A stretch of DNA of 64,000 nucleotides from Pelagibius sp. CAU 1746 (GTDB lineage: Bacteria > Pseudomonadota > Alphaproteobacteria > Kiloniellales > Kiloniellaceae): positions 3,410,001 through 3,474,000 of the forward strand of contig NZ_JBDOQT010000001.1 in NCBI RefSeq assembly GCF_039839785.1. Reading direction: 5' to 3'. Under the pieces are notes generated by a model. It was not told the DNA's origin. It ran no database searches and saw nothing but the letters and a program-made list of their open reading frames with translations. Position 1 is the stretch's first letter, and the number at the start of each line of letters is the position of its first letter. Below, piece after piece: positions 5,558 to 21,530 of the stretch. The position numbers and the translations under genes are program-made.

Positions 5558-7257
5558 TTCAGCTCCTCCGGGAAGTACTTGAGAATTGAGGACAGAGGAT
5601 TGGGCGCGGCCTGGCCGAGACCGCAGATCGAGGCGTCGCGCATGACCTGCGCCAGTTCCTCCAGCAGCGAGACGTCCCAGGTCGCGCGGCTCATCAACTG
5701 CACCGCCTTCTCCGTTCCGTTGCGGCAAGGCGTGCACTGGCCGCAGGACTCGTCCTCGAAGAAACGCATGAGATTGAGCGCCGCGGCCTTCAAGTCATCC
5801 TTGTCGGAGAGGATCACCACCGCGTGGGAACCGACGAAGCAGCCGAACTTGTCGAGAGCGCCGAACTCCAACGGCAGGTCGCCCATGGAGGCCGGCAGGA
5901 TGCCGCCCGAGGCGCCACCCGGCAGATAGGCGCGGAAGGTGTGACCCTCGGCCATGCCGTCGCAGAACTCGTCGATCAGTTCCTGAACCGAGATACCCGC
6001 CGGCGCCAGCTTCACGCCGGGCGACTTGACGCGGCCCGAGACGGAATAGGAGCGCAGCCCCTTGCCGCCGTTGCGGCCGTGGGAAGCGAACCATTCGGCC
6101 CCCTTCTCCACGATGTCGCGCACCCAGAACATCGTCTCGACGTTCTGATTCAGGGTCGGCTTGCCGAAGAGGCCCACTTCGGCGATGTAGGGCGGGCGGT
6201 GGCGCGGCAGACCGCGCTTGCCCTCGATGGATTCCAGCATCGCCGACTCTTCGCCGCAGATGTAGGCACCGGCGCCGCGGCGCAGCTCCAGCGGGCAGTG
6301 CTTCGTGAGGCCCGCGGCCTCCAGCTTGGCGATCTCCTTGGTCAGGATCTCGCGCACCGCCGGGTACTCGTCGCGCAGATAGATGTAGCAGCGCTCGCAG
6401 CCCACGGCCCAGGCCGCGATCAGCGCGCCTTCGAGGAAACGGTGCGGGTCGCTCTCCAGGTAATGGCGGTCCTTGAAGGTGCCGGGCTCGCCCTCGTCGG
6501 CGTTGATGGACATGAGGCGCGGACCGGAATAGCCGCGCACGATCTCCCACTTCTTGCCGGTGGGGAAGCCCGCGCCGCCAAGGCCGCGCAGGCTGGCATC
6601 GGACAGCGCCGCGATCAGTTCCTCCGGCGTGCGTTCGCCGGCCAGGCAGGCGCGCAACAGCTTGTAGCCGCCCTCGCCCTCATAGGCCGCGAAGTCCGTG
6701 TAGTCCGGAACGACTGGGTGATGATCGCCGGCGGCGGCCGCCGTCAGGCTCTCCACGGTGGCGTTGTCCACGTGGCGGTGCCCGACCTCGGCCACCGGCG
6801 CACAGGCGCAGCGTCCCATGCAGGGGGCGGCGACGACGCGGACCTGACTGCCGACTTCCTGGGGCAACGCCTTCAGAAGATCCTGGGCGCCCATCATCTC
6901 GCAGGTGATGGAATCGCAGATCCGGATGGTCAGCGGCGGTGGCGGAGCTTCACCATCCAGCACGATGTCGAAGTGGGCATAGAAAGACGCCACCTCGTAG
7001 ACCGCCGACATCGGCAGCTTCATCTCCTCCGACAGCGCCCGCATATGGCGCGCCGAGAGATGGCCGTACTTGTCCTGAATCAGGTGAAGATGCTCGATCA
7101 GCAAATCGGGCCGCCGCGGCGCGGCGCCGAGCAGCGCCTGGATCTCCTCCAGGGCGTCCGCATCGAGCTGACGGCCCTTGGGCGTGAACGGCGCCTTGCG
7201 GCGTCCCGAACCCGGATGAATCTGCCGCTCGAACGGGCGCGGCGTTCCCTCTGGCAT
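5554..7257 (-). CDS. fdsB: NAD-dependent formate dehydrogenase, fused gamma-beta subunit (NuoE-NuoF type)
   Basis: The 567-residue protein fuses two complex-I-like modules. Residues about 30-170 are the NuoE/FdsG thioredoxin-like [2Fe-2S] domain (cysteines in CDSITC and PCMGRCAC). The rest is the NuoF/FdsB domain with the RGLGGAGFPTG and NADEGEPGTFKD NAD/FMN-binding motifs, CGEES, and the 4Fe-4S motif CGQCTPC followed by CGLGQ. It takes electrons from the catalytic subunit and reduces NAD+. The fused form resembles the two-subunit formate dehydrogenase 1 of Methylorubrum extorquens rather than the separate FdsG/FdsB of Cupriavidus (family knowledge). It lies 130 bases downstream of the SucD-like gene and overlaps fdsA by four bases, so the four genes look like one operon. 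Confidence 0.93.
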   Translation of the reverse strand: MPEGTPRPFERQIHPGSGRRKAPFTPKGRQLDADALEEIQALLGAAPRRPDLLIEHLHLIQDKYGHLSARHMRALSEEMKLPMSAVYEVASFYAHFDIVLDGEAPPPPLTIRICDSITCEMMGAQDLLKALPQEVGSQVRVVAAPCMGRCACAPVAEVGHRHVDNATVESLTAAAAGDHHPVVPDYTDFAAYEGEGGYKLLRACLAGERTPEELIAALSDASLRGLGGAGFPTGKKWEIVRGYSGPRLMSINADEGEPGTFKDRHYLESDPHRFLEGALIAAWAVGCERCYIYLRDEYPAVREILTKEIAKLEAAGLTKHCPLELRRGAGAYICGEESAMLESIEGKRGLPRHRPPYIAEVGLFGKPTLNQNVETMFWVRDIVEKGAEWFASHGRNGGKGLRSYSVSGRVKSPGVKLAPAGISVQELIDEFCDGMAEGHTFRAYLPGGASGGILPASMGDLPLEFGALDKFGCFVGSHAVVILSDKDDLKAAALNLMRFFEDESCGQCTPCRNGTEKAVQLMSRATWDVSLLEELAQVMRDASICGLGQAAPNPLSSILKYFPEELK

Positions 7258-7387: not shown

Positions 7388-8263
7388 TCAGGCCCGTGCC
7401 GCCTGACGCACGGTCAGGCCGATTTCCGCCGCCGAGGTCGCGATGGTGACACCGGCCGCCCGCAAGGCGCCGATCTTGGCCGCGGCATCGCCCTGGCCGA
7501 AGACGTTCACCGTACCCGCATGGCCCATGCGCCGCTCCGTCGGGGCGTGCAGGCCGGCGACGTAGGCGACGACCGGCTTGGGCGCCGGGTTGGCCTTCAG
7601 AAAGGCGGCGGCCTCTTCCTCGTCGCTGCCGCCGATCTCTCCCAGCAGTACAACGCACTCGGTATCCGGATCCTCGAAGAACAGCTTCAGGCAATCGACG
7701 AAACCCATGCCGTGTACGGGGTCTCCGCCGATCCCGATGGAGGCCGACTGGCCGAGCCGGTAGGTCGATATCTGCTCGATGACCTCGGAGGTGAGCGAGG
7801 CCGAACGCGAGGCGATGCCGACCTTGCCCGGGCGCTCCAGGTGCGCCGGCATGACGCCGATCTTGCAGCGCCCCGGAATCATGATGCCCTGGGAGTTGGG
7901 GCCGATCAAACGGGTGTTGGAGCCTTCCAGGCGCTGCTTCACGCGCACCATGTCCAGCACCGGAATGCGCTCGGTCACGCAAACCAGAAGCTCCATGCCG
8001 GCATCGATCGATTCGATGATGGCGTCGGCCGCGTTGCGCGGCGGCACGAAGACCGCCGAGGCGGTCGCGCCGGTGGCCGCACGGGCTTCGGCAACGGTGT
8101 CGAAGACCGGCAGGCCCAGATGCCCGCGCCCGCCCTTGCCCGGAACCACCCCGCCCACGACCTTGGTGCCATAAGCGATGGCGCGCTCCATGTGGTAGGT
8201 CGCCTGGGCTCCGGTGAAGCCCTGGCAGATGACCTTGGTGTCGCTGTCGATGAGAACCGCCAT
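7388..8263 (-). CDS. Atypical SucD/MtkB-like acyl-CoA ligase (ADP-forming), alpha subunit
   Basis: The 291-residue protein aligns along the whole length of succinyl-CoA synthetase alpha: a CoA-binding Rossmann domain starting with ICQGFTG, GTKVVGGVVPGKGG, GIGGDP, and the phosphohistidine segment RRMGHAG with His248. Several normally constant positions differ. GPNCPG is GPNSQG (121-126) and SRSGTLT is SRSASLT (152-158), so the CoA and phosphate pocket is remodelled. Succinate or malate are possible substrates, but the operon (formate dehydrogenase downstream, oxalate regulon operator upstream) suggests an oxalate- or formate-related acid. The ATG at 8263 shares one base with the stop of the beta subunit; a GTG three bases earlier is less likely. 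Confidence 0.8.
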   Translation of the reverse strand: MAVLIDSDTKVICQGFTGAQATYHMERAIAYGTKVVGGVVPGKGGRGHLGLPVFDTVAEARAATGATASAVFVPPRNAADAIIESIDAGMELLVCVTERIPVLDMVRVKQRLEGSNTRLIGPNSQGIMIPGRCKIGVMPAHLERPGKVGIASRSASLTSEVIEQISTYRLGQSASIGIGGDPVHGMGFVDCLKLFFEDPDTECVVLLGEIGGSDEEEAAAFLKANPAPKPVVAYVAGLHAPTERRMGHAGTVNVFGQGDAAAKIGALRAAGVTIATSAAEIGLTVRQAARA

Positions 8264-9438
8264 CACGCCGCCTTCCTGCCGGCGGCTTCCACCACCTTGG
8301 CGGCTGCCTGGCCCAAGCTCTGAGCAAAGGTTACGGGAACGCCCTGCGACATGAGGATCTTGCGCGCCAACTCGCCGTTGGTCCCCGCGGCGCGGACGAT
8401 GAGCGGCACGCGCAGCCCTTCCTCCTTGCAGGCCGCGGCAATGCCTTCCGCCACGGTGTCGCAGCGCAGGATGCCGCCGCCGTAGATGTTCACCAGGATG
8501 GCGCGCACCTCCGGATTGCGCAGCAGCAGTTTGAAGCCATGGGTGATCTGCGCGCGGGTCGCCTCCGGGCGCACGTCCATGAAGTCAGCGGGCTCGCCGC
8601 CCTGCTCCGTCAGCAGATCGACGGTGGCCAGCGCCAGCCCCGCGCCATTGACCATGACGCCGATATTGCCTTCCAGGCGGACGTAATTGAGGTTGTAGTC
8701 CCGCGCCTCGAGTTCCGCCGGATCGACCTCCTCCTCGTCACGCAGATTGGCCAGGTCCGCGTGGCGGAACTGGGCGTTGTCGTCCAGCACCATCTTGACG
8801 TCCAGGGCCAAGAGTTCCCCCGCAGCGGTCACCGCCAACGGATTGATCTCGATGAGGCTGGCGTCGAAGTCCTGGAAGGCCGCGTTCAGCGCCTTCATCA
8901 GGCCGACCGCCTGATCGGCGGCCGCGCCCTCCAACCCCAGCTTTCCGGCCAGAGCCGACGCGGCGGCGTCCTGCAATCCGCCCAGGGGATCGACCTCCAG
9001 GGTCAGCATCTTGTCCGGCGCCGCGGCCAGCCGCGCCTCGATATCGTTGCCGCCCTCGCGCGCGGCGATAATCGCCACCCGCCCCGCCGAGCGGTTGACC
9101 AGGGCCGCCAGGTAGATCTCGCGGTCATGATCGACGGCTTGCTCTACGTAGACCGAACGCACCAGCTTGCCCTTGGCGCCGGTCTGCGGCGTCACGAGGC
9201 GGCGCCCCAGGAGGCCCGCCGCCGCGTCGGCCACGGCTTGCGGCGACTCGCAGAGCTGCACTCCGCCGGCGTCCTGCCGCAACCCGGCGTGGATCTGCGC
9301 TTTGACGACCCAGCGGCCGCCTCCGATGGCCCGGGCGGCCTCAGCCGCCTCATCAGCGCTGCGCGCTACCCGGCCGGCGGGGCTGTTCACACCATGCCGC
9401 CGCAACAGTTCCTTGGCTTGGTATTCATGGAGGTTCAT
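8263..9438 (-). CDS. Atypical SucC/MtkA-like acyl-CoA ligase (ADP-forming), beta subunit
   Basis: The 391-residue protein starts MNLHEYQAKELL and has the ATP-grasp and ligase-CoA domains of succinate/malate-CoA ligase beta subunits, including EINPL (about 197-201) and VNGAGLA. Two signature loops are changed: HAGGRGKAGG of the nucleotide site is HAGLRQDAGG (50-59), and the near-invariant DVGGGA is DVRPEA (288-293). The later NIFGGIxRCD appears as NIYGGGILRCD. With the adjacent alpha subunit it should make or use an acyl-CoA at the expense or gain of ATP; these changes place it outside the standard TCA-cycle enzyme. It is the first gene of the ligase-formate dehydrogenase operon, 91 bases downstream of a TGGTATACCA operator. 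Confidence 0.8.
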   Translation of the reverse strand: MNLHEYQAKELLRRHGVNSPAGRVARSADEAAEAARAIGGGRWVVKAQIHAGLRQDAGGVQLCESPQAVADAAAGLLGRRLVTPQTGAKGKLVRSVYVEQAVDHDREIYLAALVNRSAGRVAIIAAREGGNDIEARLAAAPDKMLTLEVDPLGGLQDAAASALAGKLGLEGAAADQAVGLMKALNAAFQDFDASLIEINPLAVTAAGELLALDVKMVLDDNAQFRHADLANLRDEEEVDPAELEARDYNLNYVRLEGNIGVMVNGAGLALATVDLLTEQGGEPADFMDVRPEATRAQITHGFKLLLRNPEVRAILVNIYGGGILRCDTVAEGIAAACKEEGLRVPLIVRAAGTNGELARKILMSQGVPVTFAQSLGQAAAKVVEAAGRKAA

Positions 9439-9528
9439 GGATCCGCCCGCCTCATCATCCTTGAAAGCAAAATCAATGACTAAGACAGCGTTTTCTCACG
9501 AGGTCCCGGCATTTGGCTTTCTGGCATA

Positions 9529-9538
9529 TGGTATACCA
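9529..9538. promoter_or_regulatory. Putative FCD/GntR operator upstream of the acyl-CoA ligase-formate dehydrogenase operon
   Basis: A perfect 10-base palindrome TGGTATACCA fits the T.GT..AC.A core of FadR-subfamily GntR operators. It is nested in a wider repeat with arms TTCTGG (9519-9524) and CCAGAA (9536-9541). It lies 91 bases upstream of the SucC-like start, in the 237-base gap after tctA. Two close relatives occur at 13102 and 21171. Confidence 0.6.
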
Positions 9539-9675
9539 GAAGCCCTCCCACCAGCAATCGTTTTATCCCCTCGAACGCTGACCGGGACCCATGGATATCC
9601 GATCCGCCAGGCCCGCGACCAGGGTGTTTTTGGGGAGGGACAGGCCCGCACAGCCGCGGGCCCGCCCCCGCCTTC

Positions 9676-11202
9676 TCAACCTTCCGACGCGCCGGCCGTA
9701 GCGGCCTCCTTCTTGGGCAGGAACTTCCGGATCACCGGCACCAGGATCAGCCCGACGGCGCAGAGCAGAATGATGCCGGAAATGGGACGCTCCACGAAGG
9801 TCATGGGATCGCCCTGGGAGGACAGCAGCGACTGCCGCAGCGAGCGCTCCGCCAGGGTGCCGAGCACGATGGCCAGCACCGCCGGCGCCACGGGGTAATC
9901 CAGCTTGCGCAGGATGTAGCCGGCAACGCCGAAGAGCACCATCAGCCAGACGTCCGACAGCAGCGCATTCGGGGAATAGCCGCCGACCAGGCACAGCACG
10001 AAAATGATCGGCGCCAGGATGGTGAAAGGCATCACCAGCACCTTCACGAAGACCGGGATGAAGGCGATGTTGATGATGACCGTGAAGATGTTTGCCATGT
10101 AGAGCGAGCCGATCAGGCCCCAGACGAAGTCCGGGTGCTCCACGAAGAGCAGCGGTCCGGGGCGCAGACCCCAGATGATCATGCCGCCCAGCAGGATCGC
10201 CGTGGTCGGCGAGCCGGGAATGCCCAGCGTCAGCATCGGCAGCATGGACCCCGTCGAGGCCGCGTTGTTCGCCGACTCAGGCGCCGCGACGCCGGTGACG
10301 TTGCCCTTGCCGAAGGCCTCAGGGTTCTTGGAGAAGGTCTTCGCCAGGCCGTAGGCCATCAGCGAGCCCGGCGTGGCGCCGGCCGCCGGCAGAATGCCCA
10401 CGAAGTATCCCAGCAGGCCGCTCCACACCGCGGTGAAGAAGTACTCCCTGGCCCGCTTCACGTTCTCGACGATGCTTCTGAAGGTCGACTTCACGTAGTT
10501 GACCTGCATCTTGCCGCCGCTGGTCTCCATGGTCCAAAGGATCTCGCCGATGCCGTAGATGCCGATGGCGAGCACCAGGAAGCTGATCTGGCGCTGGAAG
10601 GCGGAGAGGTCGAAGAAGACGAGGCGCGGCTTGCCGGAGATGATGTCGAAGCCGACCGTCGCCAACACCAGACCTATGAAGATCGAGAACAGGGTTTTCG
10701 GAATGTCGTCACCGCCCAGGCCTACGAAGGTGGCGAAGGCCAGCACCATGAGGGCGAATTCCTCCTGCGGGCCGAACTTGAGGGCGAAGGCGGCCAGCGG
10801 CGGCGCGGCCAGGGTGAACAGCACGACGGACACTGTGCCGCCGATAAAGGACGCCAAGGCGGCGGCCATCAGCGCTTGGTCGCCCCTGCCCGACATGGCC
10901 AGAGGTCTTCCGTCGAAGACCGTCGCCACGGCCGTCGATGCTCCCGGAATCCCAAGCGTGATCGATGAGATCGCTCCACCGTACATGGCGCCGTAGTAGA
11001 TCGCTGCCAGGAAGATGATGGCGGCATTCGGCGGCACCAGAAAAGTCAGCGGCAACAGGATGGCGACGCCGTTCACGGAGCCCAGGCCCGGCATGGCGCC
11101 GACGAAGAGGCCCACGATGCAGCCCACGACCATCATCGTGAGGTTGATCGGCTGAACAGCCTCCAGCAGGCCGCCCATGAGTGGTTCGATGATAGTTTCC
11201 AT
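9676..11202 (-). CDS. tctA: Tripartite tricarboxylate transporter, large permease TctA
   Basis: The 508-residue integral membrane protein has the TctA signatures: an N-terminal GLFVGAMPGLG motif with YYGAMYGGAISSI, and a repeated second-half version around YFVGILPAAGATPG and GIPGSPTTAILLGG, giving about 11-12 membrane spans. It forms the channel part of a secondary, binding-protein-dependent carboxylate symporter. It is third in the order tctC-tctB-tctA. The substrate is not set by sequence; placement between the two halves of an oxalate/formate gene set and the shared operator upstream of tctC suggest oxalate or a related dicarboxylate. Confidence 0.93.
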   Translation of the reverse strand: METIIEPLMGGLLEAVQPINLTMMVVGCIVGLFVGAMPGLGSVNGVAILLPLTFLVPPNAAIIFLAAIYYGAMYGGAISSITLGIPGASTAVATVFDGRPLAMSGRGDQALMAAALASFIGGTVSVVLFTLAAPPLAAFALKFGPQEEFALMVLAFATFVGLGGDDIPKTLFSIFIGLVLATVGFDIISGKPRLVFFDLSAFQRQISFLVLAIGIYGIGEILWTMETSGGKMQVNYVKSTFRSIVENVKRAREYFFTAVWSGLLGYFVGILPAAGATPGSLMAYGLAKTFSKNPEAFGKGNVTGVAAPESANNAASTGSMLPMLTLGIPGSPTTAILLGGMIIWGLRPGPLLFVEHPDFVWGLIGSLYMANIFTVIINIAFIPVFVKVLVMPFTILAPIIFVLCLVGGYSPNALLSDVWLMVLFGVAGYILRKLDYPVAPAVLAIVLGTLAERSLRQSLLSSQGDPMTFVERPISGIILLCAVGLILVPVIRKFLPKKEAATAGASEG

Positions 11203-11296
11203 GTCCGATTACCGCCTGCGTTTCCTTATTTGATCTCTGCGTATGCGACCCGGACATCGGCCCCGGCGCATACCACCGATATGCCCGAGCCAGAAG

Positions 11297-11806
11297 TCAG
11301 TAGATGAGGTCGTAGAGCGGGTAGTAGAGCGGCTCGAGTGCGGACAGGCCCTTCGGCAAGGGGGTGCTCAACGCCCACTCGAACAGGCAGAACATGACCA
11401 CCGGTGCGCCGATCGCCAGCGACATGGTCATGGTCCAGGAATGACGGCCGAGAAAACGGACGAAGGCGATCATGAACAGGAAGACCGCGATGTACATGCC
11501 GACTAAGTGCGTCGCCAGCAACAGCAGCACCAAGCCCACCGCGACGGGGGCCACGACGGCCAAAGCATCGATGGAGATGAAGGGCTCCTCCGAGCGCGAC
11601 TGCGGCGTCACCCGGCGGAACCACCTGAAGATCGTCCAGAGGCAGCACAGCAGCATTCCGGTTGCCAGCCAGAAAGGCCAAGCGCCGCCGCCAGGGCCGC
11701 TCTTAGGCACCCAGCCGATGTTGAGCTCCGTGCTCTTCCACATGATCCCGGCGGACATGATGGCGAGGATGACCGCGACCAAGATTTCGGCAGTACGAAC
11801 CGTCAT
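11297..11806 (-). CDS. tctB: Tripartite tricarboxylate transporter, small permease TctB
   Basis: The 169-residue protein has four predicted membrane helices, the last two around WTMTMSLAIGAPVVMFCLFEWALSTPLP-like sequence, and ends with the PLPKG...P(L/Y)Y segment common in TctB. It starts with a membrane-targeted helix (TAEILVAVILAIMSAGI). It is the small membrane partner of TctA and lies between tctC and tctA; the 94-base gap to tctA and 153-base gap to tctC are compatible with a single transcript. Sequence conservation in this family is low, so the call rests mainly on size, topology and context. Confidence 0.88.
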   Translation of the reverse strand: MTVRTAEILVAVILAIMSAGIMWKSTELNIGWVPKSGPGGGAWPFWLATGMLLCCLWTIFRWFRRVTPQSRSEEPFISIDALAVVAPVAVGLVLLLLATHLVGMYIAVFLFMIAFVRFLGRHSWTMTMSLAIGAPVVMFCLFEWALSTPLPKGLSALEPLYYPLYDLIY

Positions 11807-11915
11807 ACCGGCGCCTCCTTAAAACGCACAGCTTCGAGTACGATCTGAACAGACCTGAACAGCTTTGAGTTGGGTCCGGATGCGGCCGCAGGGCCGCTGC
11901 AACTGCGCAAGGAAC

Positions 11916-11943
11916 GGGGGAGCGATCCGGAGGTCACTCCCCC
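11916..11943 (-). other. Intercistronic hairpin after tctC
   Basis: Arms GGGGGAG (11916-11922) and CTCCCCC (11937-11943) flank a 14-base loop, 16 bases after the tctC stop on the minus strand. There is no T run, so it is more likely an mRNA-stabilising or processing element than a full terminator. Confidence 0.4.
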
Positions 11944-11959
11944 TTCCCCATAACGTGAG

Positions 11960-12958
11960 TTACTCGCCGGTGATGGCCTTGGCTCCGACCTTCGCGATCA
12001 GAGCTTCGTGGCGCGCCAGCTGCTTCTTGTGGAATTCAGCCAAATCGTCGCCGGCAACCCAGTTGTCACACATCAGGCCTTCGTCGGTGCAGAACTTCTG
12101 CCACTCGTCCGATTTGAAGACCTTCTCGAAGAGACCGATGTAGAACTCCTGAGCTTCCTTCGACATGCCCGGAGGCGCATTGAAGGACCGCTGCATGAAG
12201 TAGACGATGTCGTGGCCCAGTTCCTTGGCCGTCGGCACGTCCGGGAAGGCCGCGAGACGCTCGTCCGTGAACTGAACCAGCGGCCTGCTCTGTCCCGCCT
12301 TGTAGAAAGCCATCTGCTCGGAGGGATTGTTGACCGTCGAAGCGATGTGCTTGCCGATCAGGTTCTTGGCCACGGTGCCGCCACCCGGGAAGGGAATGTA
12401 GGTGATGTTCTTGATGTTGTATTCGGCCTGCAGCATGGCGAAGAGGATCGAATCCTCCTGGCCCTTGCCGGTGCCGCCTACGTTCCAGGTATCAGCCGCC
12501 TTCACCGCCTTCACCCAGTCGTCCAGCGAGTTGATGCCGCTGTCGGAGGTCACCCAAAGCTGGAAGGTATCCAGCGCCATCAGGCCGATCGGCGTGAACT
12601 TCGTCACGTCGACACCCAGGCCCTCGTTGATGATCGGTGTGGTGTAATAGCTGTTCAGCGTGACCAGAACCGTATGATCGTCGCCAGCCTTGTCCTGGAG
12701 ATAACGCAAGGCCTCGGCCCCCGAACCACCAGGCTTGTTGATCGGGATGAACGGCCGTGGCGACAGTTTCTTCTGGTCGATGATGCCTTGGATCAGACGC
12801 GCGAGCTGGTCGGCGCCGCCGCCAGTGCCCGCCATGATGATCATCTCAACGGGCTTCTTCGGTTCCCACGCCTGGGCCGGCGTTACGACGCCCGACACCG
12901 CGACGCTCAGGCCCAGCGCAAGCGCGCAGCCGGTCAGAGCTCTTCTCGTAACTGTCAT
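11960..12958 (-). CDS. tctC: Tripartite tricarboxylate transporter substrate-binding protein TctC (Bug family)
   Basis: The 332-residue periplasmic binding protein has a signal peptide (TRRALTGCALALGLSVAVSG, cleavage likely after TPAQA near residue 30). The mature part begins with the Bug-family pattern WEPKKPVEMIIMAGTGGGADQLAR, followed by the family's PGGSGAEALRYL loop and the late segment with LGHDIVYFMQRSFNAPPG. It delivers its ligand to TctAB. It is the first gene of its operon, with a TGGTATACAA operator 144 bases upstream of the start. An oxalate-type ligand is inferred from context only. Confidence 0.92.
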   Translation of the reverse strand: MTVTRRALTGCALALGLSVAVSGVVTPAQAWEPKKPVEMIIMAGTGGGADQLARLIQGIIDQKKLSPRPFIPINKPGGSGAEALRYLQDKAGDDHTVLVTLNSYYTTPIINEGLGVDVTKFTPIGLMALDTFQLWVTSDSGINSLDDWVKAVKAADTWNVGGTGKGQEDSILFAMLQAEYNIKNITYIPFPGGGTVAKNLIGKHIASTVNNPSEQMAFYKAGQSRPLVQFTDERLAAFPDVPTAKELGHDIVYFMQRSFNAPPGMSKEAQEFYIGLFEKVFKSDEWQKFCTDEGLMCDNWVAGDDLAEFHKKQLARHEALIAKVGAKAITGE

Positions 12959-13101
12959 GCTGATTTACCTCCCGTGGTTTTGGATAGGCGTTCAGGGTAT
13001 TCCCCATAGGGTTGAAACCCTAGAACAAACTGAACCTTGAACCTTATCCTTTTCCTTATTTCTTAGCGTTCCATAGGCGCAACACGACCATCCATGGTGT
13101 G

Positions 13102-13117
13102 TGGTATACAAAATACC
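13102..13117. promoter_or_regulatory. Putative FCD/GntR operator upstream of tctCBA
   Basis: TGGTATACAA at 13102-13111 is the relative of the palindromes at 9529 and 21171. It overlaps a second perfect dyad, GGTAT-ACAAA-ATACC (13103-13117). It lies 144 bases upstream of the tctC start codon in an AT-rich stretch. Regulation of the transporter together with the catabolic genes follows if the three sites bind the same protein. Confidence 0.5.
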
Positions 13118-13528
13118 GGCAAGTTTGGTCCAGGTCTACTCTTCTTATCGTCGAAACAGGAATTAGCGGCCTTTATTGCACTGCGGCATTTTACGACTTT
13201 GAGCCTTAGAGATGTCTCATTCTCTGTGTTTCTCAATACTGAGCAAATAGTTAGACCGCATGTTCCGGGATACCCCGGCACCGCTTCCCGCGCGGGGCGA
13301 CCACACCCCTTCGCAGGCGCACCATCGAATGCGCCGGCCGCGCGCCGGGCATAAGCATACGCCGACCCGGCGCGAGCGGCGAGGAATGACATTGGTCTGA
13401 AAATTAAACCACAAGTTGATAGGGACGCAGCCGGCAAGGCCGTCCCGCCTGGCGGACAAGGCCGGACGGCCGGTGTCGCACGGTACGGCATTACCTGCCC
13501 TCTGCGGCCGCCCCGCGGAGCGGCCGAC

Positions 13529-13552
13529 GGCGGAGGTCGGAACGCCTCCGCC
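13529..13552 (-). terminator. Hairpin at the end of the oxc-frc-fhs-usp operon
   Basis: Perfect 8-base arms GGCGGAGG (13529-13536) and CCTCCGCC (13545-13552) lie directly after the stop of the universal stress gene on the minus strand. No T run follows, so termination efficiency is uncertain; a 3'-end stabilising structure is equally possible. Confidence 0.45.
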
Positions 13553-13554
13553 CT

Positions 13555-14415
13555 CTAGTGCATAAGCAGGATCGGCAGGTCGGCGTGATCGACAACATAT
13601 TGCGTCACTCCACCCATGATCAGTTCGCGCTGCCGGCTCTGGCCGTAGGCGCCCATCAGAAGGCAGTCGGCGCCGGCGTTCCTGGCGACTTCGAGCAGCG
13701 CCTTGCCCACCGAGGAAGAGCCCCGCTCGAACGTCTGCAAGCTGCAGGAAACGCCGTGGGTTTCCAGGTAGACCTTCGCTTCCTCGGCGGAGATCGGCAG
13801 AGCCTTCCCCGAAGGCGCGAGAATCACCACCGCATCCGCCTTCTTCAAGACCGGCAAGGCGGCGGTCATGGCGCGCGACGCCTCGCCGCTGCCGTTCCAG
13901 GCGATGGCGATCTTGGCGCCCAACTGCGAAACCGGCTTCGCCGGACACATGAGTACCAGCTTGCCCGACTCCAGCAGCGCGGCCTGCAGGGTGTTGAGGC
14001 CCAAGCCTTGCTCGTGGTCGGGCTGCGGCACCGCGATAAGATCGACCAGGCGCCCACGCAGGCCGATCACGTTCGCCTGCTTGCCGGTGGCTTCCCGCCA
14101 GGTGGCGGATACGGCGTCCTGGGGCCACGGAAAACCGTCGACCTCCGGAAGGCCGCGATCCGCACAGTAGTCATCGAACAGCTTGCGGATCTTCTCCTCT
14201 TCCTCGTCGGCGAGGCTGCTGGCGGAGCTCACGATGCTCTTGCGCAGGCTGGAGGGGATCGGCACGCCGTAAGGGATCATGTCCTCGGGCTTCGGCCGGC
14301 AATGGAGCACTTCCAGATGTGCATTGTGACGCTTGGCCAGGCTCAAGGCATGATCCAGCACGCCCTCCCCCTTACCGTCGCCACGAACCGGCACCAAGAT
14401 CGAACGCAAAGTCAT
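13555..14415 (-). CDS. Universal stress protein (UspA-type)
   Basis: The 286-residue protein opens with MTLRSILVPVRGD and ends with GADCLLMGAYGQS...GGVTQYVVDHADLPILLMH. The C-terminal half is a canonical UspA fold with a nucleotide-binding pattern G-2x-G-9x-G-(G), close to the ATP-binding form. The N-terminal half is a second, more divergent Usp unit containing a charged insert around EEEEKIRKLFDDY. It is the last gene of the minus-strand run that starts at gntR, 116 bases after fhs. A role in tolerance of acid or energy stress while using oxalate is only a guess from position. Confidence 0.85.
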   Translation of the reverse strand: MTLRSILVPVRGDGKGEGVLDHALSLAKRHNAHLEVLHCRPKPEDMIPYGVPIPSSLRKSIVSSASSLADEEEEKIRKLFDDYCADRGLPEVDGFPWPQDAVSATWREATGKQANVIGLRGRLVDLIAVPQPDHEQGLGLNTLQAALLESGKLVLMCPAKPVSQLGAKIAIAWNGSGEASRAMTAALPVLKKADAVVILAPSGKALPISAEEAKVYLETHGVSCSLQTFERGSSSVGKALLEVARNAGADCLLMGAYGQSRQRELIMGGVTQYVVDHADLPILLMH

Positions 14416-14531
14416 CCAGATTCCTCCCTGTAAGCCTGCTTCGGCTTATTCTTGCAGGTGTCAACCGGCCCCTTCGGCGGCCGGGATTTCTCGCCATCCC
14501 TTTGCCGGCCGCCGAGGGTTGTAAGCGGCCC

Positions 14532-16205
14532 CTAGAAGAGACCCTGTATCTGACCGGCATCGTCGAGCCGGATGCTGTTGGCCGAGGGCACGCGCGGCAG
14601 ACCCGGCATGGTCATGATCTCGCCGCAGATGGCGACGATGAAGCCGGCTCCGGCGGAAAGGCGCACTTCGCGCACCGGCACCGCGTGATCGCTCGGCGCG
14701 CCGCGCAGGTTGGGATCGGTGGAGAAGCTGTACTGCGTCTTGGCCATGCAGACCGGCAGGTTACCGTAGCCCTCGTCCTCCCACTGCTTGAGCTGATCGC
14801 GCACCTTCTTGTCCGCAATGGCCCCGGAGGCGCCATAGATCTCCTTGCAGATCGTATCGATCTTCTCGAAGAGAGGCAGCTTGTCGTCATAGAGCGGCGC
14901 GAACTTGGCGCCGCCGGCATCGAGCAGGCCGACCACCTTGTTGGCCAGTTCCTCGGTCCCCTCGGACCCCTTGCCCCAGTGCTCGCAGATCACCGCCTCG
15001 ACGCCCTGGCTCTCGGCGAATTCCTGGATCGCCGCCAGCTCCGCTTCGCTGTCCTTGATGAAGCGGTTGATGGCGACCACGGCCGGAACACCGAACTTCT
15101 TCACGTTGGCAATGTGCCGGCCCAGGTTGGCGCAGCCCTTCTTCAAGGCGTCGACGTTCTCGTCGCCCAAAGCGTCCTTGGCGACCCCGCCGTGCATCTT
15201 CAGTGCCCGCACCGTGGCGACGATGACCACGGCCTCGGGATTGAGGCCGGCCTTGCGGCACTTGATGTCGAAGAACTTCTCCGCCCCCAGGTCTGCGCCG
15301 AAGCCTGCCTCGGTGACCACGTAGTCGGCCAGCTTCAGGGCCGCCTTGGTGGCGGAAACAGAGTTGCAGCCGTGGGCGATGTTGGCGAAGGGGCCGCCAT
15401 GGATGAAGGCCGGGTTGTTCTCCAGGGTCTGCACGAAGTTCGGCATCAGCGCGTCTTTCAGCAGCACGGTCATCGGGCCGTCGGCCTTCACGTCGCGGGC
15501 ATAGATCGGCTTGCGGTCGCGGGTATAGGCGATGACGATATCGCCCAGGCGCTTCTGGAGGTCGGCCAGGCCGTCGGCCAGGCAGAAGATCGCCATGATC
15601 TCCGAGGCCACGGTGATGTCGAAACCGGTCTGACGCGGGAAGCCGTTGGCCACTCCGCCCAGGGAGGTGATGGTGTCGCGCAGCGCCCGGTCGTTCATGT
15701 CCAGCACCCGGCGCCAGGCGACCCGGCGCGCATCGATGCCCAGCTCGTTGCCCCAATAGATGTGATTGTCGATCAGGGCCGAGAGCAGGTTGTGGGCCGA
15801 GGTGATGGCGTGGAAATCGCCGGTGAAGTGAAGATTGATGTCCTCCATCGGCACCACCTGGGCATAGCCGCCGCCGGCGGCGCCGCCCTTCATGCCGAAG
15901 CAGGGGCCCAGCGAAGGCTCGCGCAGGCAGATCATGGCCTTCTTGCCGATACGGTTCAGGCCGTCGCCCAGGCCCACGGTCGTGGTGGTCTTGCCCTCGC
16001 CGGCCGGCGTCGGGGAGATCGCCGTCACCAGGATCAGCTTGCCGTCCTTGTTCTTCTTGATGGACTCCAGATAGTCGAAGCTGACCTTCGCCTTGGTCGG
16101 CCCGTACTGCATCAGGGCCTCCGCCGGCATGTCCAGCTTGGCGCCGATCTCGGTGATCGGCTTCATGTTGGCTTCGCGGGCAATTTCGATGTCGGACTTG
16201 GGCAT
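14532..16205 (-). CDS. fhs: Formate--tetrahydrofolate ligase
   Basis: This enzyme joins formate to tetrahydrofolate using ATP, giving 10-formyl-THF, or runs in reverse to release formate with ATP gain. The 557-residue length is standard. Visible signatures include the P-loop-like [15 protein letters not shown], the [20 protein letters not shown] block, HLTGD-type [15 protein letters not shown], and [13 protein letters not shown]. It lies 63 bases downstream of the formyltransferase-type gene in the oxc-frc operon, which links oxalate-derived C1 units to folate metabolism. Confidence 0.97.
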
Positions 16206-16268
16206 AGCGCTATTCTGCCTGTTCTCTAATGATTGCTGTCTGTCTCGGCGGGCCGGAACGCTTCCTGC

Positions 16269-17183
16269 TCAGCCGCCGAGTTTTGCCCCTTCGGCAAGGC
16301 CGGACTTCGCCGCGAAGTCACCGGCGGAGATCTTCTTGTCGTCGTGCGGACGCACACGCTCGATCCGAATCGCGCCTCCCTGGGCGGCAACCGTAAAGCT
16401 GTCGCCGTCCACTGCCAGGACGGTGCCCGGCTCGCCGGAACCGTCGACCTTGCGGCTGTCGAAGACCTTCAGCTCGTTGCCGTTGCAAGTGGTCCAGGCG
16501 CCGGGCTGCGGGTTGGTGCCGCGGATCAGGTTATAGACCTCGTCCACAGGCTTCGACCAGTCGATCTCGGCATCGGCCTTGCGGCACCAGCTTTCGTAGG
16601 TCGCCTTGCTGTGGTCCTGCGGCGTCTTGGTAGCCTTGCCGTCACGCACCAAGTCGACGCATTCGCACATGGCGTCGACGCCCATCGGGAACAGGTGGTT
16701 GAAGTACAACGTTCCCAGGGTGTCGTCGGGGCCGATGTCCACCGTCTTCTGCATGATGACCGGCCCCTCGTCCAGGCCCTCGTCCGGCTCGAAGATGGTC
16801 AGCCCGGTCTGCTTCGCACCCATGATGATCGGCCAGTTGATCGAACTGGGGCCACGGTGCAGCGGCAGCAGCGAGGGATGGTACTGGATGGTTCCCTTGG
16901 TCGGCAGGTCGATCACGGGCTGCGGCACGAAGAGGGTCACGTAGGCCATGACGCAGAGGTCCGGGTTGAAGGAACGCATCAGTTCCTCCGCTTCCGGCGT
17001 CTTCCACGACGACGGCTGGTGCAGCGGCAGGCCCTTTTCCAGCGCGAACTCCTTCAACGGGTCGGTCGGCCGCCCCTCCTTGTCCGGCGCGCAGAACACG
17101 CCGACGACGTTCTCACCTCGCTCGAGAAGCTTCTCGAGCACCGCTTTTCCGAAGGCCTGCTGGCCGTGGACGACAATCCGCAT
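16269..17183 (-). CDS. Free-standing formyltransferase / formyl-THF hydrolase-type protein
   Basis: The 304-residue protein matches the N-terminal folate hydrolase domain of 10-formyltetrahydrofolate dehydrogenase (and more distantly methionyl-tRNA formyltransferase). It starts MRIVVHGQQAFGKAVLEKL and has YHPSLLPLHRGPSSINW with catalytic His102, then LDEGPVIMQ with Asp138. A C-terminal FMT_C-like domain (about 200-300) follows, starting IDWSKPVDEVYNLIRG. The C-terminal aldehyde-dehydrogenase part of the eukaryotic enzyme is absent. It sits between frc and fhs, so formyl exchange between formyl-CoA, formate and THF is the obvious role. Whether it hydrolyses 10-formyl-THF or accepts formyl from CoA cannot be told from sequence. 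Confidence 0.85.
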   Translation of the reverse strand: MRIVVHGQQAFGKAVLEKLLERGENVVGVFCAPDKEGRPTDPLKEFALEKGLPLHQPSSWKTPEAEELMRSFNPDLCVMAYVTLFVPQPVIDLPTKGTIQYHPSLLPLHRGPSSINWPIIMGAKQTGLTIFEPDEGLDEGPVIMQKTVDIGPDDTLGTLYFNHLFPMGVDAMCECVDLVRDGKATKTPQDHSKATYESWCRKADAEIDWSKPVDEVYNLIRGTNPQPGAWTTCNGNELKVFDSRKVDGSGEPGTVLAVDGDSFTVAAQGGAIRIERVRPHDDKKISAGDFAAKSGLAEGAKLGG

Positions 17184-17278
17184 CCCGTATTCCCCGTATC
17201 TCTCTAGACCAATGCTCTCGGTTATCGATGAGCATTACCTCGCATCGCGGCGTCTGGTCCCGCCGCGACGCGAATTAT

Positions 17279-18556
17279 TCACTCGGCGGCAGCCTGCTCC
17301 GGCGTGTCGCCGAGCGCTCCGCTCGCCCAAGTTTCCTGTACCTCTTCGTCCGAGAGGCCGAGCACATCCTTGAGGATCTCATTGGTGTGCTCACCCAGCA
17401 GCGGCGACCGCTGGACATCGGCCGGCGAGGCGGACAGCTTCACCGGGCAGCCCACGGTCAGGTACTTGCCGCGCTCCGGGTGGTCCACCTCGACGATGGT
17501 CCCGGTCTCGCGCAGGCTCGGCTCCTCGGCCAGTTCCTTCATGGAGAGGATCGGGCCGCAGGGAATGTTGAGCGGGTTGCAGGCTTCCATGACCTCGAAC
17601 TTGGTCTTGGTCTTGGTCCACTCCTCGATGGTGTCGAAGATCTGCGGGATCTTGTCGAGGCGCGCCTCCGGCTTGGCGTAGCCCGCATCCTCTTTCCACT
17701 CCGGCTTGCCGATCAGGTCGCAGATGTTGCCCCAGACGGCCGCCTGGGTGATGAAGTAGACATAGGCATTGGGGTCGGTCTCCCAGCCCTTGCACTTCAG
17801 GATCCAGCCCGGCTGGCCGCCGCCGGAGTCGTTGCCGGCCCGCGGCACCGCGTCGCCGAACTCGATGCCCTGGCCGAACTGGCTGTACTCCTTCAGGGGA
17901 CCGTGCTCGAGGCGCTGCTGATCGCGCAGCTTCACGCGGCAGAGGTTCAGCACGCCGTCCTGCATGGCCGCCAGGACGCGCTGGCCCTTGCCGGACTTCT
18001 CGCGGTGGAACAGCGCCGTCACGATGCCGAGGGCGAGGTGCAGTCCGGTGCCGGAATCGCCGATCTGAGCGCCGGTGACTGTCGGCGGACCGTCCAGGAA
18101 ACCGGTGGTCGAAGCCGAGCCGCCGGTGCACTGGGCGACGTTCTCGTAAACCTTGCAGTCCTCATAGGGGCCCGGGCCGAAGCCCTTGACCGAGGCGTAG
18201 ATCATGCGCGGGTTGATCTTCTGCACGTCGTCCCAGCCGAAGCCCATGCGGTCCAGCGCGCCGGGAGCGAAGTTCTCGACCAGCACATCGCAGGACTGCA
18301 CCAGCTTGGTCAGCACTTCCTTGCCCTTCTCGCTCTTGGTGTTGAGCGTGATGGACCGCTTGTTGTGGTTCAGCATGGTGAAGTAGAGGCTGTCGACATC
18401 GGGAATGTCGCGCAACTGGCCGCGGGTGGCGTCACCAACGCCCGGACGCTCGACCTTGATCACGTCGGCGCCGAACCAGGCCAGAAGCTGCGTGCAGGTC
18501 GGGCCGGACTGGACGTGGGTGAAATCGAGAATACGGACGCCTTCGAGAGCTTTCAT
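17279..18556 (-). CDS. frc: Formyl-CoA:oxalate CoA-transferase
   Basis: This class III CoA-transferase moves CoA from formyl-CoA to oxalate, giving oxalyl-CoA and formate. The 425-residue protein starts [19 protein letters not shown] and has the catalytic Asp in [10 protein letters not shown] (Asp167; Asp169 in the Oxalobacter enzyme) and the glycine-rich loop DSGGGQPGW that closes over the active site in Frc. These two features and its neighbour oxc separate it from other CaiB-like enzymes. It lies 42 bases downstream of oxc and 95 bases upstream of the formyltransferase-type gene on the same strand. Confidence 0.96.
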
Positions 18557-18598
18557 CTTTTGCTCCTGTATCTGAATAGCTGGCTCGCGCGAGCCCGA

Positions 18599-20353
18599 TT
18601 ATTTCTTGGAAACCACGCTCTGCGGGTTGAGATTTCCGATGCGGCCGCTTTCGGTGCCGGCCTTCTCGTCGATCACCGCGTTGACCAGGGACGGCTTGCC
18701 GGAGTCGAGGGCCTCCTTGACGGCGCGGCTCAGCTCGTCCGGCGAGGTGGCGTAATAGCCGACGCCGCCGAAGGCCTCCATCATCTTGTCGTAGCGCGAA
18801 TCCTTGACGAAAACCGTGGTCGCGGCGTCGCTGCCCCCGGAGGGATTGACGTCGGTGCCGCGATAGATGCCGTTGTTGTTGAAGACGACGACGCAGACCG
18901 GCAGGTTGTAGCGGCAGATCGTCTCGATCTCCATGCCCGAGAAGCCGAAGGCGCTGTCACCCTCGACGGCCAGCACCGGGCAGCCGGTCTCCACCGCCGC
19001 GGCGACGGCCTGGCCCATGCCGATGCCCATCACGCCCCAGGTGCCGACGTCCAGGCGCTTGCGCGGCTTGTACATGTCGATGATGGAACGCGCGAAGTCG
19101 AGCGTGTTGGCGCCTTCGTTGACGAGGATGGTGTCCGGCCGCTCGGCGATGATGTCGCGCAGCGCGCCCAGCGCGCCGTGGAAATCCATCGGCACGTTGT
19201 TGTTGCGCAGGCGCGGCGCCATCTTGGCGATGTTGCCGTCCTTCTTTTCCTTCACCGTGTTGATCCACTCGGCGGGCGGCTGCACCCAGTTGCCGCCCAT
19301 GCCTTCCAGCAGGGCGGAAACGCAGGAGCCGATGTCGCCGACCAACGGGGCCGCGATCTCGACGTTGCTGTCCATCTCCTTGGGATCGATGTCGATGTGG
19401 ATGAACTTCTTCGGCGCCGTGCCCCACTGCTTGCCCTTGCCGTGCGACAGCAGCCAATTGAGGCGGGCGCCGATCAGCATCACGACGTCGGCCTCCTTCA
19501 ACACCAGCGAGCGTGCGGGGCCCGCCGACTGCGGATGGTCGTCCGGCAGCAGCCCCTTCGCCATGCTCATCGGCAGGTAGGGGATACCGCTCTTCTCGAC
19601 CAAAGCGCGGATATCGTCGTCGACCTGCGCATAAGCCGCGCCCTTGCCGAGAATGATGAGTGGCTTCTTGGCGCCCTTCAGCACATCGAGCGCCCGCTTG
19701 ACGGCGTCCGGCGCCGGGATCTGCGCCGGCGCGGCGTCGATCACCTTGACCAGGGACTTGCGCCCGGCCTCGGCGTCCATGACCTGGCCCATCAACTTGG
19801 CCGGCAGATCCAGATAGACGCCGCCGGGGCGCCCGGAGACCGCGGCGCGGATGGCACGCGCGATACCGATGCCGATGTCCTCGGCATGAAGAACGCGATA
19901 GGCCGCCTTACACAGCGGCTTGGCGACGGCAAGCTGGTCCATCTCTTCGTAGTCGCCCTGCTGCAGGTCGACGATCTCGCGCTCGGAAGAGCCGCTGATC
20001 AGGATCATCGGGTAGCAGTTGGTCGTGGCATGGGCCAGGGAGGTCAGGCCATTGAGGAAACCCGGCGCCGACACGGTCATGCAGATGCCGGGCTTCTGGG
20101 TCAGGAAGCCGGCGATGGCTGCCGCGTAGCCAGCGTGCTGTTCATGCCGGAACGACAGAACGCGCAGGCCCGCGGCCTGCATGTAGCGGCCCAGATCCGT
20201 GATCGGGATGCCGGGCACGTTGTAGATCGTCTTGATGCCGTTCAGCTTCAGCGCGTCGATGATGAGATGAAAGCCGTCCGTCAGCTCCTGCTGTCCTGCG
20301 GCTTCGCCGGAAGCAAGCGTGTCGAGAGCCGGATCGCTCATGCGTGTCTCCAT
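18599..20353 (-). CDS. oxc: Oxalyl-CoA decarboxylase (ThDP-dependent)
   Basis: This enzyme decarboxylates oxalyl-CoA to formyl-CoA and CO2. The 584-residue protein has the three-domain ThDP fold: catalytic Glu in [11 protein letters not shown], central Rossmann domain, and the ThDP motif [30 protein letters not shown]-like region (GDS...NN). IYRGTDVNP after the ThDP site is typical of oxalyl-CoA rather than acetolactate enzymes. The ATG at 20353 is used; one at 20341 with GGAGA just upstream is an equal alternative. It follows gntR by 59 bases and precedes frc by 42, forming the core of the oxalate operon. Confidence 0.96.
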
Positions 20354-20412
20354 AATTCCATGTTGCCTTCGAAGCGGCCCGCTATTGGCTGCGGTTTCCG
20401 CCAGGTATTCGT

Positions 20413-21111
20413 TCAGTCCAGATAGTCGACGTGCTTTTCGATATGCGCCGCCAAATTCAGGGTGTGCTCGCGCGACAGCCGCTCGGCCAGCTCCGCGTCG
20501 CGCGCCTCCAAAGCTTCTATGATGTGCATATGATCGATGATCGAGCGATTGGCGCGATCCTGCTCGTTGATGGTGCGCGCGCGGATGCCCTTCATGTGCA
20601 GGAACAGGCGATCCGCCGTTTCCTTCAGCAGCGCGCAGCCGCTCATTTCCAGGATGGCCTGGTGGAACTCGATGTTGCGGTCAGAGTACTCGTCGATGTG
20701 GGCCTGCATCTGACCGTTCTCGAAGGAGGTGAAGATCTTGCGCAGCGAAGCGATCTGCTGGTCGCTGGCCTTCTCCGTGATCAGGCGGCAGGCCATGCTC
20801 TCCAAGGCCGCCCAGACGGTGATCATCTCCAGGATTTCCTTGCGCGTCTTGCGCACGATGAAGACACCGCGGCGCGGGATGACCGTGACCAGGCCTTCCT
20901 GCTCCAAACGCGCCAAGGCTTCCCGGATCGGCGTCCGGCTGATGCCAAGCTGCTCGGAGAGCTGCCGCTCGTCGAGCTTCAGTTCCGCGTCGTCGGCATA
21001 GATGTTCATTGACGTGATGCCGTCGCGCAGCGTCTCGTAGATATGCCCCTTCAAACTGAAGGTATTTTCGATCGGCTTGAATTCGAGCTTGCTCGGCAGC
21101 ATGGCGACCAT
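20413..21111 (-). CDS. FCD-domain GntR-family regulator, probable oxalate regulon controller
   Basis: An N-terminal winged helix ([37 protein letters not shown]) is followed by an all-helical FCD ligand-binding domain with the metal-type residues D...H in [10 protein letters not shown] and later [19 protein letters not shown], typical of regulators sensing carboxylates. The open frame extends upstream to a GTG at 21192, but that part encodes no conserved sequence and contains the palindrome at 21171-21180. I prefer ATG 21111 (or 21102), giving about 232 residues with the operator in the leader. No convincing Shine-Dalgarno decides the start. It is probably autoregulated and the first gene of the oxc-frc operon. 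Confidence 0.85.
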
Positions 21112-21170
21112 CGGAGTCAAAAGCTTCGTGAAAGGACTGCATCGGCGTGCGGCCGAGGGCGTCTGGTTCG

Positions 21171-21180
21171 TGGTATACAT
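21171..21180. promoter_or_regulatory. Putative FCD/GntR operator upstream of gntR-oxc
   Basis: TGGTATACAT at 21171-21180 matches the sites at 9529 (TGGTATACCA) and 13102 (TGGTATACAA) in the eight positions TGGTATAC. It lies 60 bases upstream of the preferred gntR start, where it would allow negative autoregulation of the gntR-oxc-frc transcript. Confidence 0.55.
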
Positions 21181-21530
21181 TAGCCCAGGCACCAGAGAGC
21201 GACAACAAGAATCCCGTTATGCAGGTACCGGGAAGTTATCCACAGACCTGACCTCGCCTCTCAGGCAACGAAGGATAACGTTCTGTCATCGCACAGCAAT
21301 CGGCAGCCATTGCGGCGCAAACAATCGGCCGACCCGCGCAGGCTTCCCGCGGCTTGGCGCAGCGAGACGGCGCCCGTTGAGGCCGGCTCCGGACCGATCT
21401 GGAAGCTATTTTCCGACATCCATAAGGGGAATTTTCGCGCAAAAGGCGCAGCCAAGCGGCGCGGACCAATCCCTGAACAGGCACCGAGCCGGCGTTGACG
21501 CAGGCGGCAGAGCGGTTCCCGCACCGCCAT

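Follow-up and report, generated by a model that had tools for sequence, protein, structure and literature searches.

Three GTATAC sites in an oxalate and formate gene cluster

A 64-kb stretch of the 4.66-Mb genome of Pelagibius sp. CAU 1746 (G000), hereafter called the window, carries three operons: gntR-oxc-frc-fmt-fhs-usp, which begins with the gene for an FCD-type GntR regulator; tctCBA, for a tripartite tricarboxylate-type transporter; and sucCD-fdh, in which a divergent SucCD-like pair stands with formate dehydrogenase genes (Table 1). The three near-identical palindromes that a preliminary description had placed in front of them were found at 9529 (TGGTATACCA), 13102 (TGGTATACAA) and 21171 (TGGTATACAT), with GTATAC cores at 9531, 13104 and 21173, and a count confirmed that the window holds no other GTATAC. 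The distances given there (91, 144 and about 60 bases) agree with those computed: 91 nt to the sucC start at 9438, 144 nt to the tctC start at 12958 and, for gntR, 60 nt from ATG 21111 or 69 nt from ATG 21102. TGGTATACCA (sucC) and TGGTATACAA (tctC) fit the FadR-subfamily pattern TKGT/ACMA, as had been proposed, whereas TGGTATACAT (gntR) fits it less well. The comparisons below make it highly probable that the FCD-type GntR protein encoded at 20413–21111 uses all three sites as operators; it would repress the sucCD-fdh and gntR operons and also control tctCBA.

Taken alone, the number of GTATAC sites is weak, ordinary evidence: 1.13 are expected in the window by chance (standard deviation 1.07), and 10 of 100 shuffled sequences reach three. 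The genome-wide motif scan recommended earlier likewise gave no enrichment of the short motif (8-mer), with 18 matches of TGGTATAC at 13 places versus 26 for a reversed-pattern control, and TNGTATACNA at 11 places with 12 control matches per strand. It is placement that counts, as 3 of the 13 TGGTATAC places lie within 12 kb and every one precedes a related operon. The preliminary description named many unrelated copies as grounds for refutation; the 8-mer goes part of the way there, with 10 other places, whereas the 17-bp operator described below has 0–1 mismatch to TGGNATANNNTATACCA only at sucC, gntR and gcl. What goes beyond chance is the clustering of the three sites and their conservation in relatives.

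The conserved unit is a 17-bp inverted repeat

A search with the regulator as query returned 262 stretches encoding a relative, and the best 80 of the 262 (60–99% identity) were analysed; they come from Pelagibius, other Kiloniellales/Rhodospirillales, Hyphomicrobiales, some Gammaproteobacteria and Acidobacteria. When gntR sites were aligned on GTATAC, T, G and G stood 9, 8 and 7 bases before the core in 68, 67 and 68 of 71. Spacing was also examined free of any anchor by counting TGG-Nk-CCA (k = 0 to 30) in 79 gntR upstream regions. TGG-N11-CCA was present in 61, compared with a mean of 6.85 and a maximum of 11 over 20 shuffle rounds, and secondary peaks at k = 18 (25 regions), k = 4 (23) and k = 25 (17) were separated by 7-bp steps, every other k giving 13 or fewer. 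After deduplication by flank, 14 of 45 gntR sites had a further TGG 7 bp upstream (background about 1.0), and 6 of 45 had a further CCA 7 bp downstream (background about 0.6). By these counts, what is conserved is a 17-bp dyad, TGGnATAnnGTATACCA (TGG-N11-CCA), flanked by more half-sites in 7-bp increments, and TGGTATAC is only part of it; the 10-bp palindrome first described gives way to this larger unit.

A symmetrised position weight matrix (PWM) built from 66 gntR sites of 74 loci outside the genus, hence from other genera, ranked the three sites first in the window. Scores were 26.4 at 9522, 21.0 at 13102, 19.5 at the overlapping, 7-bp-shifted 13095 and 19.2 at 21171; the shifted overlap at 9529 scored 8.2 and the next non-overlapping window site 2.85.

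A functional unit of 10 bp (TGGTATAC), with the outer TGG a mere promoter element or weak extra box, is unlikely, although it has precedents. FadR-subfamily sites usually have TKGT/ACMA with 2–3 nt spacing and weaker boxes 7–12 nt from the centre (PMC4494728), and VanR Atu1419 binds a 10-mer, ATGTATACAT, that overlaps a −10 box (PMC7797058). Three genomes (G010, G017 and G028) keep the 10-mer while the outer TGG has become GAG, CGG or TGA, and operator positions T6 and T11 may be −10 bases. Against this, conservation of the outer TGG comes close to that of the core (in the GTATAC-anchored count above). Among the 17 loci that lack GTATAC, seven still have a 17-mer with at most 2 mismatches, for example TGGTATTCTGCATACCA; three of the seven share one sequence. 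The N11 spacing also far outnumbers the N4 spacing (61 versus 23 of 79).

The proposed operator precedes the three operons in relatives and accompanies the regulator

In the 300 nt before gene starts of the related loci, GTATAC was found at gntR (61/78), tctC (38/44) and sucC (19/20), and it was nearly absent before operon-internal genes: oxc 1/77, frc 0/74, fmt 0/44, fhs 1/31 and usp 0/19, with tctA (4/52), fdhGB (1/15) and glnA (0/1) as further controls. A 17-mer with up to 3 mismatches to TGGTATANNNTATACCA gave 71/78, 37/44 and 19/20 for gntR, tctC and sucC, and none for oxc, frc, fmt, fhs or usp. Divergently placed sucC and tctC share one upstream region in many loci, so their two counts are not independent. 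The relatives are not statistically independent either; removal of similar flanks keeps 45 of 54 gntR sites.

Within the genus, the footprint at gntR leaves all four TGG/CCA half-sites invariant (7 aligned sequences), that at tctC comprises an invariant 19-nt block (6 sequences), and that at sucC is invariant at 16 of 17 positions (7 sequences), the exception, in G006, being more symmetric. The seven other genus genomes each hold one sucC-type and one gntR-type site (0–1 mismatch), and the reversed pattern had one match in one genome.

A survey of 54 genomes of the order used the exact pattern TGGNNTANNGTATACCA and regulator matches at E up to 1e-60. The pattern occurs at 46 places in 22 genomes (reversed pattern, 4 places) and the regulator in 26 of the 54; both were present in 20 genomes, the motif only in 2, the regulator only in 6 and neither in 26 (Fisher's exact p = 1.5e-7, uncorrected for relatedness). 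In both motif-only genomes (loci L215 and L228), gntR is cut by a contig end. Of the six regulator-only genomes (G010, G013, G015, G017, G028 and G196), four were inspected. Three of these, G010, G017 and G028, keep TGGTATACCA before gntR with the outer half-site changed; in G196, where two of three copies were inspected, the copy on contig C144 is without TGGTATACCA and that on C99 has only a weak upstream site.

In two genomes, G192 and G193, fdh and gntR lie on different contigs, and an exact operator precedes the fdhGB match by about 400 bp. Because the operator precedes fdh on a separate contig, these genomes support fdh as a true regulon member. The same operator thus precedes all three operons in relatives. 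The sites are kept in orthologous loci, and the regulon of three operons under the FCD regulator at 20413, as first proposed, is supported by this conservation, by the near-absence of sites inside operons and by co-occurrence with the regulator.

Probable promoters and mode of control

The operators at gntR and sucC appear to contain −10 boxes (TAnnnT at operator positions 6–11 and TATACC, respectively; Table 1). Among 61 deduplicated gntR regions, 37 have a −35-like TTG 17–19 nt upstream of the operator, and 16 of 20 sucC regions have one at 18–19 nt. Because the operator covers the probable −10 box, repression is likely at both promoters.

Activation, or control through DNA looping in place of simple repression, is a rather improbable alternative. 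The tctC site stands 144 nt ahead of its gene, and two 17-mers, roughly 100–220 bp apart, occur in 13 of 20 sucC regions, so looping is possible; Atu1419, an FCD tetramer, is reported to loop between palindromes 190 bp apart. Overlap with the probable −10 box at gntR and sucC, however, is the usual position for repression.

Several observations weigh against assigning all three sites to one repressor of this kind. GTATAC is missing from 17 of 78 gntR regions and any 17-mer (up to 3 mismatches) from 7 of 78, and such 17-mers also occur upstream of tctA (7/52) and fdhGB (4/15). At this threshold the whole genome has 132 matches, versus 207 for the reversed control. The tctC site, at its 144-nt distance, fits the operator model worst: it has 2 mismatches and is tied in rank with seven other genome places, and TTG stands at −17 to −19 in just 2 of 33 tctC regions. 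A sigma-70 scan listed no promoter at the sites.

The FCD/GntR regulator

The regulator passes the Pfam cut-offs for PF00392 and PF07729, and its fold-search matches are GntR/FCD proteins. Its longest open reading frame (GTG 21192) would include the operator. Genus relatives, however, match it only from MLPSKLE/MLPNKLE (ATG 21102) onward, and an in-frame stop separates the operator from gntR in 39 of 71 operator-bearing loci, so the site most likely lies upstream of the gene rather than inside it; among the candidate starts, the alignments make ATG 21102 more likely than ATG 21111.

Residues N146, H150, H194 and H216 are invariant in 46 aligned proteins. NanR and Atu1419 have their metal-binding residues (Asp/Asn-x3-His plus two distal His) at the same spacing (4 and 22); by this pattern, the protein carries the metal-binding, VanR-type FCD residue signature. 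A structure model (predicted local distance difference test score 85.2) matched best, in the PDB, to PmiR, a Brucella GntR protein, McbR, VanR Atu1419 and TM0439. Oxalate or another chelating carboxylate could plausibly be the effector. A folate would be the rival effector, since Atu1419 is reported to respond to methylene-tetrahydrofolate.

The genome has 13 FCD matches, and it is very improbable that the sites are owned by another of these proteins or are common to several as a general FCD motif: the 10-bp TTGTATACAA stands beside at least two other FCD genes (C1:210553 and C1:2763974), so a GTATAC core is not by itself diagnostic of this regulator, perfect TGGTATACCA palindromes also lie between TetR and MMPL genes and before a 3-hydroxyisobutyrate-dehydrogenase-family gene, and a second FCD gene (28% identity) is near 17-bp TGGAATAT-type sites, but the operator precedes gntR in 71 of 78 orthologous loci, the 17-mer tracks the regulator across the 54 genomes, and most other own-genome sites tested are without TGG-N11-CCA or differ in bases.

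Two of these other FCD loci may be described further. In L129 (G000:C1:2760000-2770000), at about 3975, TTGTATACAA lies beside an FCD gene that adjoins a malonyl-CoA (coenzyme A) synthase gene (829.9 bits); this site resembles the MatR operator. In L125 (G000:C2:400000-415000), the FCD regulator with 28% identity lies between 17-bp TGGAATAT/ATATTCCA-type sites (5106–5129 and 10307–10323), one of which is present in two copies offset by 7 bp. Other FCD proteins may thus use this arrangement as well.

Two candidate members of the regulon were rejected. The gcl-hyi-glxR genes (glyoxylate arm) have a perfect TGGTATACCA and a 17-mer with 1 mismatch upstream (L126, G000:C1:1924000-1942000, positions 9636–9652, opposite an IclR-type regulator). 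Only two of 12 gcl loci, those of the own genome and G001, show GTATAC at this place; it is missing in the closest relative (97% identity). The 3-hydroxyisobutyrate-dehydrogenase-family gene is preceded in L024 by two perfect TGGTATACCA 54 bp apart (5231 and 5285); palindromes number two in the own genome, one each in G007 and G004, and none in the other five of eight genomes, and the best 17-mer scored 4.9.

Genes of the cluster

Table 1. Proposed operators, probable promoters and genes in the window
Feature	Position	Strand	Remarks
Operator O-suc TGGCATATGGTATACCA	9522–9538	+	0 mismatches to consensus, best place in genome; PWM rank 1; upstream of minus-strand sucCD-fdh operon
Operator O-tct CGGTATTTTGTATACCA (13118–13102, minus strand) with overlapping copy shifted 7 bp at 13095	13095–13118		PWM ranks 2 and 3
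Operator O-gntR TGGTGCC TGGGCTAATGTATACCA CGAACCA	21164–21194	-	17-mer 21187–21171, flanked on each side by an outer half-site at 7 bp
Probable sucC promoter	9530–9557	-	TTGCTG (9557–9552), 16-nt spacer, TATACC (9535–9530) within operator; predicted from sequence
Probable gntR promoter	21177–21205	-	TTGTCG (21205–21200), 17-nt spacer, TAATGT (21182–21177) within operator; predicted
gntR, FCD/GntR regulator	20413–21111	-	232 aa from ATG 21111, start perhaps ATG 21102; Pfam FCD and GntR
oxc, oxalyl-CoA decarboxylase	18599–20353	-	TIGR03254, 1016.6 bits
frc, formyl-CoA transferase	17279–18556	-	TIGR03253, 731.3 bits
fmt, Fmt-like formyltransferase	16269–17183	-	Below fmt cut-off; relative in 43/80 loci
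fhs, formate-tetrahydrofolate ligase	14532–16205	-	PRK13505, 936.3 bits
usp, universal stress protein	13555–14415	-	Pfam Usp
tctC, tripartite tricarboxylate-type transporter receptor	11960–12958	-	Pfam TctC, 90.7 bits; relative in 46/80 loci
tctB	11297–11806	-	Pfam TctB
tctA	9676–11202	-	Pfam TctA, 481.9 bits
SucC-like ADP-forming CoA ligase beta subunit, divergent	8263–9438	-	NCBIfam succinate-CoA ligase, 457.7 bits
SucD-like alpha subunit	7388–8266	-	NCBIfam, 380.5 bits
NuoE-NuoF-like fusion, probable NAD-linked formate dehydrogenase subunit	5554–7257	-	
Formate dehydrogenase alpha subunit	2765–5557	-	TIGR01591, 740.7 bits; start by codon model

Profile scores bear out the earlier naming of Oxc, Frc, Fhs, the formyltransferase, formate dehydrogenase, the SucC-like protein, TctCBA, Usp and the FCD regulator. 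The SucCD-like pair passes the NCBIfam succinate-CoA ligase cut-offs (370 and 336 bits, respectively). In the window SucC, canonical DVGGGAT is replaced by DVRPEAT, and the next (GG-I) loop has an extra Gly. In a midpoint-rooted tree without support values, from which sequences shorter than 300 residues were left out, it and 18 of the 20 SucC of related loci lie on branches apart from canonical SucC and malate-CoA ligases. The first two G of DVGGGAT are RP or RT in most of the divergent proteins and PP in three gammaproteobacterial loci, and L102 and L107 have a canonical SucC at the same position, L107 being the sole sucC region of the 20 without a 17-mer. With these variants and the two canonical proteins, a single signature for the branch was rejected, so a change of substrate is put forward as a hypothesis. 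Identity as malate-CoA ligase (MtkA) was also rejected (435.1 bits against a cut-off of 604; motif NIFAGINRCDW absent). Our guess, from gene context, is that the pair acts as a formyl- or oxalyl-CoA ligase. A canonical SucCD (595.5 and 463.1 bits) is also encoded in the genome, following the malate dehydrogenase gene mdh; the SucA/SucB that follow it, like the names of the ABC and TRAP neighbours in the own genome, were read by eye.

Elsewhere in the window, a PanE-like protein lies beside a RamB-like regulator (28105–29184 and 29370–30776), both below the NCBIfam cut-off, and no GTATAC occurs there. The PanE-like protein could be an oxalyl-CoA reductase candidate, by comparison with Methylobacterium PanE2.

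A different ThDP enzyme replaces Oxc in many loci

Of the 80 loci, 42 have Oxc as the thiamine diphosphate (ThDP) enzyme of their cluster, 37 have a different enzyme and one has neither. The replacing enzyme, of the 2-hydroxyacyl-CoA lyase/acetolactate synthase type, is 24–30% identical to Oxc and 67–99% identical within its own group, and it directly follows gntR in 36 of 37 loci (the exception is L067). It is accompanied by a protein closely related to the same Frc; examples are L057:10728-12404 and L051:10719-12395. In 9 of 37 aligned, a 19-residue segment of Oxc is absent; the C-terminal part fell mostly outside the compared stretch. The best NCBIfam match was below the cut-off (436–445 versus 587 bits) for L051, L057, L218 and L222, in a scan that took in three of the 37 and L222 from a genome region; L218 may duplicate a counted locus. 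Compared with solved structures, the single protein taken (L057) was closest to 2-hydroxyacyl-CoA lyases. The window genome has no close copy of the enzyme (best 30%).

The surrounding genes are similar in the two types. Loci of the replaced type (n = 37) have Frc in 32, tctA in 27, tctC in 20, fmt in 19 and sucC in 10; Oxc-type loci (n = 42) have them in 39, 30, 26, 24 and 10, respectively. Many of the loci are cut short. The simple gene caller found one gene only in L020. On the GntR tree, which includes two broken sequences (L063 and L078) on a false long branch, parsimony required 12 changes between Oxc and the replacement, against a mean of 26 and a minimum of 18 in 200 shuffles.

In the label "oxalate/formate regulon", the word "oxalate" does not cover the orthologous regulons in full, since another ThDP enzyme stands for Oxc in 37 of 80 loci. 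Because Oxc is swapped while Frc, tct, fmt and sucC stay, the regulon may serve formyl-CoA and formate metabolism more than that of oxalate. We tentatively hypothesize a regulon centred on formyl-CoA and formate, in which a single FCD repressor acts through the 17-bp operator on a module that can take either of two formyl-CoA-releasing ThDP enzymes, Oxc or an uncharacterised one resembling 2-hydroxyacyl-CoA lyases, and the SucCD pair would be a new ADP-forming formyl-CoA/oxalyl-CoA ligase, priming the Frc cycle or recovering ATP from formyl-CoA.

A model for the regulon and comparison with known systems

From the computed sites, their conservation, the half-site spacing and the co-occurrence with the regulator, we infer how binding, repression, oligomeric state and effector could fit together. 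The regulator, probably in the form of a tetramer or of two or more dimers, would bind the 17-bp inverted repeat together with the half-sites lying 7 bp beyond it. Bound there, it would cover the −10 region of two promoters, those of gntR-oxc-frc-fmt-fhs-usp and sucCD-fdh; it would also control tctCBA. Most likely it represses, and release could follow when a carboxylate (oxalate, or oxalyl- or formyl-CoA) reaches the FCD metal site. Import, CoA activation, decarboxylation, formate oxidation and one-carbon transfer would then start together.

A defined operator shows which genes act with oxalate in marine alphaproteobacteria, and the regulon points to two functionally unassigned enzymes, one the SucCD-like ligase and the other the ThDP enzyme found in place of Oxc. 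The inverted array in 7-bp steps, with an outer half-site near core conservation, is also a clean case for studying FCD assembly on DNA. Among the open-access literature matches listed, neither a regulator of the bacterial oxc-frc oxalate pathway nor a SucCD-type enzyme in oxalate metabolism was found. The available part of PMC8305402 names oxc/frc and GntR but draws no link between them and concerns other genes, and the text of PMC4494728 does not mention oxalate anywhere.

E. coli NanR binds a (GGTATA)3 operator as three dimers through a 32-residue N-terminal extension, and its metal site comprises Asp172, His176, His222 and His244 (PMC8012715). The regulator described here is likewise an FCD-type GntR protein with multiple GGTATA half-sites and the corresponding metal-site residues, whereas the NanR sites are one-direction repeats and the core here is an inverted repeat with 7-bp steps. 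Assignment as NanR was rejected because of this inverted core and a model score of 69.8 bits against a cut-off of 260. Atu1419 of Agrobacterium fabrum (VanR group) is a repressor of hydroxycinnamate genes with methylene-tetrahydrofolate as effector (PMC7797058). It shares with the present system a GTATAC-centred palindrome, one copy of which overlaps a −10 box, a metal site of Asn and three His, and a similar fold; its sites differ in being 10 bp long and 190 bp apart, and its target genes are others.

FadR-subfamily sites with additional half-sites resemble the operator in combining a TKGT/ACMA core with an extra box 7–12 nt from the centre. The extra boxes score about half as high as true half-sites in PMC4494728, whereas the outer TGG here almost matches the core in conservation. 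As described in PMC12927642 and PMC3720670, the Oxc-Frc oxalate pathway with NAD-formate dehydrogenase uses the same enzymes as the window cluster; to these the cluster adds the divergent SucCD pair, Fhs, the Fmt-like protein and a common operator.

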